From Streptococcus toyakuensis (GTDB lineage Bacteria; Bacillota; Bacilli; Lactobacillales; Streptococcaceae): a stretch of 64,000 nucleotides of DNA. A program made the translations under genes and the position numbers. Positions 5,851-8,030 of the stretch are shown here, piece after piece. Numbering within the stretch: position 1 is the stretch's first letter; each line of letters begins with the position of its first letter. The notes under the pieces are model-generated. The model worked only from the letters and a program-made list of their open reading frames with translations, was not told the DNA's origin and did not search any database. Location of the stretch: NCBI RefSeq assembly GCF_024346585.1, contig NZ_AP024523.1, forward strand, positions 1,991,024 through 2,055,023, written 5' to 3'.

Positions 5851-7029
5851 TCATTTAAAATAATCTCGTCTGATATAAATTAAAATAGCTTCTATCACCA
5901 GACAAATGGCCGATATCCAAAAACTGATACTAATACCAAAACTCTCAGTAATATAGCTCATTAGCAAAACAAATACTGAAAATGCTAGTGTCGAAATCAC
6001 TTCAAGAACGGAATAGACATTAACCAAGTTATTTTCCTCTACTGTTTCCTGAAGAAATACACTTTCAGGAACTTCTTTTAGTTGCGATAACATACCAACT
6101 AAAGCTGAAAATACTAAAAACATCTGTGCATTTGGAAAAAATAGAATAGTCAGTGTCACTATTGCCATGGCTACAAGAGGAAAAAGAATACTTTCCCATT
6201 TAGCAGCAAGAAACTTTTCAGATAGCCGAAAAGCAATTAAGCCACTAATTATAATCCCGATAGAATATGCTGTATTAGAATATCCCCAGTAACTTTCCGT
6301 TTCATTTAATAACTCAGTTACAAAGACAAGTATGATAGACGAAACCCAAATCGTATTTGAGAAAATTTCAAATAAATTTGCTGATACAAAAAGTCTTAAT
6401 CTAGGATCTCTAGCAACTAACTTCCAACCTTTGAGCAAAATTTCAAGATTCGTCTCTGACTCTAGTACCTCCACTTCAGCGTTAGGCAGAAATAACATCA
6501 GAAAGCTAGAAATGATATACAAGATTAAAATGATAAACGTGGTAGGCAACAGACCAATTGTTGCAAACAAGAGTCCACCCAACCCCCACCCTACCAATTG
6601 AACAGCTTCACCAGTCATTGACAAGGCTGAGTTAGCCTTGCCCAAATCGGTCGCATAGCGCGGCACAATAGCATAGGAAACGGGTGCTGCAAAACCATCT
6701 AATATGGAAATTGCAACAACAAATAGATAGATCACCAAAGGCGCTACTGATTGCATTACGGTAAACATTCCTACCAGTATCGCCAATAATATAGTCTTTC
6801 CAAATTGGGATAAAGATAAAACCCTATTTAGCGCTATCCTTTTAGTAACTAAAGGAACTAAAAGACTTGCAACAAAAGAGGATATCCCTATTAAAATGGG
6901 AACTAGTGATGTGGCAATTACTGATTTTGAAATAATGTATATGTTAGCAATGATTGTTACTCTAAAGAAAATATCTGCTAAATTTGCAAACAATTGAGAG
7001 ACTAACAATTTGATAAATGAATTAGACAT
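5851..7029 (-). CDS. MFS transporter, probable exporter
   Basis: 392-residue integral membrane protein with about 12 hydrophobic segments in two halves, the layout of the major facilitator superfamily; the best impression is the drug/secretion-effector exporter group, substrate unknown. ATG at 7029 has AGGAG (minus strand) shortly upstream. It stands alone between dlt and glp, more AT-rich than its neighbours, and is divergent from a 22-codon pheromone-like ORF at 7125-7193 with only 95 bases between starts. That pairing raises the possibility that it is under peptide signalling control, but no direct evidence is present. Confidence 0.8.
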   Translation of the reverse strand: MSNSFIKLLVSQLFANLADIFFRVTIIANIYIISKSVIATSLVPILIGISSFVASLLVPLVTKRIALNRVLSLSQFGKTILLAILVGMFTVMQSVAPLVIYLFVVAISILDGFAAPVSYAIVPRYATDLGKANSALSMTGEAVQLVGWGLGGLLFATIGLLPTTFIILILYIISSFLMLFLPNAEVEVLESETNLEILLKGWKLVARDPRLRLFVSANLFEIFSNTIWVSSIILVFVTELLNETESYWGYSNTAYSIGIIISGLIAFRLSEKFLAAKWESILFPLVAMAIVTLTILFFPNAQMFLVFSALVGMLSQLKEVPESVFLQETVEENNLVNVYSVLEVISTLAFSVFVLLMSYITESFGISISFWISAICLVIEAILIYIRRDYFK

Positions 7030-7050
7030 ATAGCTCTCCTATCTTAGTTG

Positions 7051-7096
7051 CCAACTTTGGAATTAAAATTTGATTTTTAATATTTTAGCATAAAAT
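7051..7096 (+). promoter_or_regulatory. Divergent promoter region of the SHP-like ORF and the MFS gene
   Basis: On the plus strand TTTGAT (7069-7074) and TAAAAT (7091-7096), 16 bases apart, can serve the peptide ORF. On the minus strand TGCTAAAAT (about 7084-7092) is an extended -10 for the MFS gene. The short palindrome CCAACTTTGG (7051-7060) lies just upstream of the plus-strand -35, where Rgg-type activators bind in SHP systems. Operator identity is inference. Confidence 0.4.
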
Positions 7097-7124
7097 AGCA
7101 GAAAACAAAAGTGAGGTTTTTTAC

Positions 7125-7193
7125 ATGAGAAAGCAAAAGCTAGTGCCTTTATTCTTCCTATTTTTTGAAGGAATTATTATCGTTGGAGGCTAG
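7125..7193 (+). CDS. Putative short hydrophobic peptide (SHP-like pheromone precursor)
   Basis: 22-codon ORF, ATG at 7125-7127, TAG at 7191-7193, with GTGAGG at 7111-7116 eight bases before the start. The peptide starts MRKQK (basic), continues with a hydrophobic run rich in Leu and Phe, and ends EGIIIVGG. SHP pheromones sensed by Rgg regulators are about 20-23 residues, basic at the N-terminus, and give a mature C-terminal peptide that starts with Glu or Asp and often ends in Gly-Gly (for example DILIIVGG in group A streptococci). No rgg gene is in the window. It could also be a chance ORF or the relic of a membrane protein. Confidence 0.6.
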   Translation: MRKQKLVPLFFLFFEGIIIVGG

Positions 7194-7213
7194 CTCTAAG
7201 AAGTTATACTCAA

Positions 7214-7244
7214 TGAAAAAAGCCTGAGATACTCATCTCAAGCT
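7214..7244 (-). terminator. Intrinsic terminator after glpF
   Basis: Minus-strand stem AGC-T-TGAGAT, loop GAGT, ATCTCA-G-GCT (7221-7243) followed by a run of T. It may also stop plus-strand transcription from the SHP-like ORF. Confidence 0.8.
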
Positions 7245-7256
7245 CTATTTTCTAAA

Positions 7257-7961
7257 TTAGAAAAGTGAGAATACGAGAACGGCCAAGGCTGCTCCGATAA
7301 CAGGTCCCACAACAGGAATCCAGGCATAAGACCAGTCTCCGTCTCCCTTGTTTGAAATTGGCAAAATGCTATGCATGATACGAGGTCCAAGGTCACGCGC
7401 AGGGTTCAAGGCATAACCTGTTGTCCCACCTAGTGATAGACCGATACCGACAATCAAAGTCCCCACTGCAAAGGTTCCGATTCCTGCTTGAAGGTCATAA
7501 AGTCCCAAAGCAAAGATTGTCAATACCAATACAAAGGTGCCAAGGATTTCGCTGATCAAGTTTGATACAGTATCTTTGATGGCTGGTCCAGTACTGAAGG
7601 TTGCCAGGATATTTCCTGCATTTTCTTCTGCCTCATAGTGAGGTTTGAATTGCAACCAAACCAAAATCTGACCGAGCATAGCCCCTGCGAACTGGGCTAG
7701 GATATAAGGGAATACTGATGCCCAAGGCAAGTCACCTTTTAAAGCCACACCAATTGTCACAGCTGGATTCAAATGAGCTGGACTGAGTTTTCCAGATACA
7801 AAGACTGCAACTGCAACTGCAATCCCCCAACCCATCGTAATCACAATCCAACCTGAGCTGTTGCTCTTGGTTTTTGGAAGAACAACACCAGCAACAACAC
7901 CATTTCCTAGAAGAATTAGGATTAAAGTCCCTAGAAATTCTCCAAATAATTCATTCATCAT
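7257..7961 (-). CDS. glpF: Glycerol uptake facilitator GlpF
   Basis: Aquaglyceroporin channel of 234 residues with six membrane spans. Both NPA boxes are present: HLNPAVTIG near residue 65 and ALNPARDLGP near residue 185; the Asp after the second NPA marks the glycerol-type channel. An in-frame upstream extension to 8015 is rejected: the ATG at 7961 has GGAG upstream and gives the usual length. Third gene of glpK-glpO-glpF, so it lets in the substrate of the two enzymes encoded before it. Confidence 0.93.
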   Translation of the reverse strand: MMNELFGEFLGTLILILLGNGVVAGVVLPKTKSNSSGWIVITMGWGIAVAVAVFVSGKLSPAHLNPAVTIGVALKGDLPWASVFPYILAQFAGAMLGQILVWLQFKPHYEAEENAGNILATFSTGPAIKDTVSNLISEILGTFVLVLTIFALGLYDLQAGIGTFAVGTLIVGIGLSLGGTTGYALNPARDLGPRIMHSILPISNKGDGDWSYAWIPVVGPVIGAALAVLVFSLF

Positions 7962-8030
7962 CTTTCTGTCTCCATTAAAAAGAAGGGGCGGGCGACAAGG
8001 AAGCCTGCCCTCCACCTCTTTGATTTTTTC

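Follow-up and report, generated by a model that had tools for sequence, protein, structure and literature searches.

The shp gene and its divergent neighbour

The window, which is the whole 64,000-nucleotide stretch analysed here (bases 1991024-2055023 of a 2,055,023-base contig of Streptococcus toyakuensis), contains a 22-codon open reading frame at 7125..7193 on the plus strand, which encodes the peptide MRKQKLVPLFFLFFEGIIIVGG and is preceded by the ribosome site GTGAGG at 7111..7116 (plus strand), a site that is kept in relatives. The frame is flanked by a divergent MFS gene for a 392-aa protein (5851..7029, minus strand, starting at 7029) on one side and by glpF on the other, and a terminator-like hairpin (7219..7246, minus strand) is located beyond glpF, between glpF and shp. 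A sequence-only reading had described the frame, its start codon, ribosome site and peptide, and the divergent MFS partner in the same way. That reading had also stated that no Rgg is encoded in the window. In agreement with this, when the whole host genome was searched for the Rgg C-terminal family, four places were returned, all of them outside the window.

The peptide has the basic start, the hydrophobic core and the acidic first mature residue of an SHP pheromone, with EGIIIVGG as the predicted mature end after presumed cleavage. A loose SHP pattern, composed after the frame had been seen, matched this frame and no other in the window, and 40 simulated first-order sequences of 64 kb gave a mean of 0.075 matches each, none of which had a ribosome site; the frame is more than a chance occurrence. 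Two further features of SHP genes are absent. No linked rgg, divergent or convergent, lies in the window or between shp and the MFS gene, and the candidate Rgg operator, a box assigned from its position, is missing from the shp promoter. DNA encoding exactly EGIIIVGG was found in two of 284 Streptococcus genomes, the host and G137, and the G137 copy lies in near-identical DNA: up to the point where glpF diverges, about 1,690 bases align with 2 mismatches, a sign of recent exchange. A search of a phage collection with the region gave no match, and the limited paper collection searched contained no match to EGIIIVGG, to GGIMIIVVG (an end found in relatives) or to 'orphan pheromone' together with Rgg.

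Several described systems resemble this gene in part. SHP1358 of S. thermophilus, which is MKKQILLTLLLVVFEGIIVIVVG (PMC3679016), has a basic start, a hydrophobic core and an EGII end and shares 13 of 22 residues with the window peptide; however, shp and rgg are linked and divergently transcribed in the SHP1358/Rgg1358 system as described there, whereas in the window rgg and the box are missing and the end is EGIIIVGG. The peptides SHP2 and SHP3 of S. pyogenes (DILIIVGG/DIIIIVGG), as given in the same source, have a similar hydrophobic IIVGG end but start with Asp and belong to another Rgg group, whereas the IIIVGG end in the window goes with an EGII-type peptide, flanks and relatives. The SHP listed as Sthermo_14 of S. 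thermophilus (PMC12445099), MKNQKLLPLLFLLFEGIIIIVVG, is the same as the shp product of loci L054, L057 and L080, and is linked to an Rgg, in contrast to the orphan shp of the window. Fragments of the SHP peptides considered here are not found in the main text of PMC9426450.

The MFS protein belongs to the ryptide export MFS transporter family (NCBIfam NF041056), with 685.6 bits over residues 1-392 against a cut-off of 575. Ryptides are described as having no characterised function (PMC13361665). The ryptide maturase family NF040899 had one weak match in the host genome (34.7 bits, cut-off 600), at the streptosactin maturase gene, and no RRR-type precursor was present among ORFs of at least 20 residues in 6500-8000. 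Because a full ryptide maturase was found in only 1 of the 284 genomes, the case for an ancestral ryptide cluster in this group rests on the exporter family together with a maturase-like tail next to the MFS gene.

States of the glpF-dltA site in relatives

MFS relatives at an E value of 1e-70 or better were found in 39 of the 284 Streptococcus genomes, 24 of them at an identity of at least 90%, and the loci of 36 of the 39 were fetched (G169, G210 and G265 were left out). The 24-locus counts given below refer to the relatives at 90% or more; G220 (72%) and 11 fetched loci at 60-62% without an rgg match are outside these counts. The 21 named loci include S. mitis, S. pneumoniae, S. pseudopneumoniae, S. 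hohhotensis, S. thalassemiae, S. cuniculi and S. agalactiae; 19 of them were taken as genomes already counted, and the other two stand outside the counts, namely L037 (S. mitis), with rgg and an ABC transporter, and L057 (S. agalactiae), with shp, rgg, a streptide-type maturase and a broken MFS gene. The glpF query was an out-of-frame translation, but its matches mark glpF DNA, and in-frame glpF ORFs are present in named loci.

At 15 of the 24 loci, rgg and a RiPP or ABC-transporter cassette lie between shp and the MFS gene. Thirteen of the 15 sit between glpF and dltA, and for G010 and G218 neither gene is in the stretch fetched. An intact, divergent shp stands 89-90 bases from rgg in 14 of these loci (G070 has no shp match), and the window shp is homologous to such rgg-adjacent genes, with identity of up to 17 of 22 residues. 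Rgg has 283-287 aa in 14 loci and is cut to 116 aa in G154. The cassette between rgg and the MFS gene contains an ABC transporter in 10 loci, with a further 441-aa ORF in two of those, a streptide-type maturase and a second MFS gene in three (broken in G154, with a fragment in G218), and a precursor ending TRRRY with a ryptide maturase in G010. Assigned to families, the L052 maturase (S. mitis SK564) falls in TIGR04080 (893 bits) and the L054 maturase (S. cuniculi) in NF040899 (966 bits); the L037 ABC transporter comes closest to GggC, yet far under the cut-off (208 of 750 bits).

The remaining nine of the 24 loci have no rgg (the host G000, G137, G200, G149, G029, G269, G198, G238 and G140), with glpF and dltA matches present. 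The dN/dS of the MFS gene was 0.130 among eight of them (G137 was dropped as a near copy) and 0.143 among 13 rgg loci, and its reading frame has no stop in the 25 rows compared. Judged by these codon comparisons, the MFS gene is under purifying selection, also where the product and regulator genes are gone. The rgg-less loci were not grouped in the MFS tree (8 label changes, with 390 of 500 shuffles as low), in which 17 of 22 inner branches are open; the tree therefore does not show that there was one deletion event only. Exporter retention is not universal, because in S. agalactiae ATCC 13813 only a C-terminal piece of the exporter is left (L057, 6001-6380), after a shp-rgg-streptide-type locus that otherwise looks complete.

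Other variants of the site were also observed. In G220 (L082, 5195-7349), apparently a separate reduction, a box and then the exporter come directly after rgg; the exporter is preceded by a maturase-like tail, and there is no shp match. Five of the 24 loci encode, between glpF and shp, a 219-aa protein with a signal-like start (L050:1118-1777, with matches in L069, L070, L075, L076 and L079), which had no Pfam or NCBIfam family at E 0.001. In 8 of the 14 rgg-adjacent shp genes (L060, L061, L063, L074, L075, L076, L077 and L079), Gly replaces the expected Glu or Asp (GGIMIIVVG/GGIMIIVVS), as it also does in the rgg-less locus L070. A comparison of six against seven full-length Rggs, with L076 left out, gave no fixed residue difference separating EGI-type from GGI-type SHP loci.

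The junction, the promoter core and the fate of shp

The host follows the shp-rgg intergenic DNA of the complete loci from the shp start outward to AAAAATCAAA and then diverges. All nine rgg-less loci align across this junction, passing from the shp/rgg promoter core into a short stretch like a maturase 3' end, and none of the nine has rgg, a candidate Rgg box or the cassette. Where the shp start could be recognised (4 of 9), it lies 94-95 bases from the MFS gene. The stretch that resembles the 3' end of the G010 ryptide maturase gene covers 7030..7073 (minus strand) and is now the leader of the MFS gene. Compared over 7030-7075, 34 of 46 bases were identical to the G010 gene, with a local score of 39 against a maximum of 29 in 2000 shuffles, which preserve base composition and not dinucleotides; the homology spans these 46 bases only. 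Six other loci scored 12-19 and G220 scored 35. Five bases, TTTGA/TCAAA at 7069..7073, are common to both sides of the junction and mark the probable deletion point; given TCAAA on both sides, a deletion across microhomology would be the simplest reading.

The retained part of the shp/rgg intergenic region extends over 7069..7124 (plus strand) and includes a -10-like TAAAAT at 7091-7096, assigned by eye, which faces shp. A second -10-like element, TGCTAAAAT at 7082..7090 (minus strand), faces rgg in complete loci and the MFS gene here, and may act as its promoter. A promoter scan of 6950-7320 returned no consensus promoter, with 0.9 expected by chance, so these promoter assignments follow from conservation only. 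With at most one mismatch, the box CWNATATGGGAA is present before shp in 14 of the 15 rgg loci and just after rgg in 15 of 15, and it is present in none of the nine rgg-less loci between the shp site and the MFS gene. The box pattern was composed after the loci had been viewed, and with one mismatch it also occurs elsewhere, at 22 places in the host against 7 in the reversed control and at 15 against 13 in G010; from its position, it is a candidate Rgg operator. The MFS gene would now probably be read from the former rgg promoter and not from a quorum-controlled one.

Among the nine rgg-less loci, shp is intact in three, broken in two and deleted in four. The intact copies are those of the host and G137, which are identical, and of G198, which ends GGIMIIVVG; the copy of G238 is frameshifted, that of G140 has lost its start and frame, and the four others have lost the body of the ORF. 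Intact shp is thus found in 14 of 15 rgg loci versus 3 of 9 rgg-less loci (Fisher p 0.004, with related rows). The sequence-only reading had proposed that a lack of conservation of the last eight residues amid conserved neighbouring DNA would count against its interpretation, and this is seen in the nine loci: although the flanking DNA is conserved, EGIIIVGG is kept only in the two near-identical copies, one locus has an intact GGIMIIVVG and six have no intact shp. Since the MFS tree does not group the rgg-less loci, recombination has probably carried their common junction from strain to strain, unless the tree lacks the power to group them.

Candidate host receptors and the probable origin of the orphan gene

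Compared with the Rggs of the glpF-dltA site, three of the four host Rggs show 24-34% identity. The other, at 538 kb, is of the same clade and 63% identical to a site Rgg over 249 residues, but it is truncated at 249 aa, whereas its counterpart in G107 agrees with it in the first 246 residues and runs to 287 aa. A separate shp, MNKKMIVTLVLCILESIIVIGVG at 539348-539419, goes with this host Rgg, as do two exact boxes, a precursor ending CGPSHSCGGGR and the maturase GggB (718 bits, cut-off 650). This streptosactin-type locus (L124, G000:C1:535415-539419) has the shp end ESIIVIGVG and an ABC transporter gene, with an IS-like transposase gene beyond. Neither an Rgg of more than 33% identity to the clade nor a GggB match was found in G137 and the seven other rgg-less genomes. 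By these comparisons, no intact cognate receptor is evident in the host or in G137, although orphan Rggs may conceivably serve as one. The sequence-only reading had proposed to look for an Rgg without a linked peptide. The three other Rggs had no SHP-like ORF in the small-ORF filter, but the filter also overlooked the shp at 539348-539419, because a longer ORF that starts further upstream contains it; the filter result is therefore no proof that other host Rggs lack peptides. At L001 (G000:C1:1183586-1187254), another MFS gene comes after an Rgg gene, and the box-like CTTATTTGGGAA stands directly behind that rgg; no SHP-like ORF was recognised there by the filter, and the locus is a possible orphan receptor-exporter pair. 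SHP peptides are exported by PptAB, cleaved by Eep and taken up by Ami/Opp; candidates for processing and import in the host are one Eep-type protease match and nine places of oligopeptide-binding proteins.

Considering these results, we regard it as likely that an SHP1358-like Rgg/SHP locus with a ryptide-type target operon was lost here through a deletion that spared shp and the MFS exporter, and that the ORF is its vestigial shp. In the proposed course of events, the ancestral locus would have been an SHP1358-like quorum-sensing system controlling a ryptide-type operon (an RRR-class radical-SAM RiPP), and a deletion, probably across the five-base microhomology, would have brought the shp/rgg promoter core up against the maturase 3' end. 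Lost in this step would have been rgg with the two candidate Rgg operators, the precursor gene and all but a small part of the maturase gene, so that shp and the MFS exporter would remain. This reading draws on the shp homology, the common junction, the absence of rgg and the boxes, and the purifying selection on the MFS gene, all of which are seen in the sequences compared. The window shp would have no working receptor at home and be decaying, and the MFS gene may be kept for an efflux or immunity role without a product; the host shp, intact with its ribosome site and promoter core, runs counter to a relict. The nearest precedent is the transporter-only ryptide loci of the SHP/Rgg gp_sali_7 group in S. 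thermophilus, where the target operon is reported to encode only the transporter in 264 of 265 strains (PMC12445099); those loci keep rgg and shp, whereas the window has lost rgg too and its shp is left without a receptor. What the sequence-only reading had proposed is accordingly divided: the gene is of the SHP type and orphaned, and its neighbour is a peptide exporter by family, but a functioning unit, unlinked or hybrid, in control of export does not agree with a site whose rgg is linked in relatives and is missing here with the candidate boxes, nor with a same-clade host Rgg that is truncated and already paired with another shp.

A working self-signal, exported, cleaved, re-imported and read by an unlinked host Rgg, would be in line with the intact ORF and ribosome site, the processing and import candidates, the same-clade Rgg at 538 kb and the three further Rggs without an SHP-like ORF in the filter. 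We consider it improbable, because that same-clade Rgg is truncated and has its own peptide, the remaining three are distant from the site Rggs, no Rgg of G137, which has the same shp, exceeds 33% identity, the box is missing from the shp promoter, and Rggs without a peptide are unproven by a filter that missed one. Alternatively, the peptide might act on neighbours only, triggering or blocking the Rgg of complete-locus strains and being ignored by its receptor-less host. Close relatives commonly have a complete locus, with a full-length Rgg and a related SHP, and the recent tract shared by the host and G137 could reflect selection. The IIIVGG end is shared with DIIIIVGG, which crossed between two of the tested systems, an exception among tested SHP-Rgg pairs that were mostly specific in the experiments described (PMC3679016). 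However, six of nine rgg-less loci have lost shp, the shared tract includes the MFS gene and part of glpF and so says nothing specific on shp, and the two S. thermophilus systems tested in that source responded to no foreign peptide (PMC3679016), which makes this explanation very unlikely.

It is more unlikely still that the nine rgg-less loci are the ancestral state, with rgg and the cassettes inserted later. The streptide-type, ABC-transporter and ryptide cassettes between shp/rgg and the MFS gene indicate that the region is exchanged, and the MFS tree leaves the states unordered; but the short maturase-like tail is present in the rgg-less loci, and a lone SHP lacking its Rgg would make little evident sense as the original state. 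Compared with these alternatives, we prefer deletion from a complete locus, which explains the apparent orphan pheromone through a series of states observed at a single place in the chromosome, from the complete locus and the exchanged cassettes to the deletion scar and the loss of shp.

Scans for SHP genes without such a site comparison will list relict genes as active signals. The retained RiPP-type exporter makes exporter-based protection in commensal streptococci testable. As a bolder idea, to which we assign little probability, cluster-less strains would keep the exporter as constitutive protection and the diverged lone pheromone of the window lineage would act on the quorum sensing of cluster-bearing neighbours; if true, these would be resistant non-producers that talk and do not listen.
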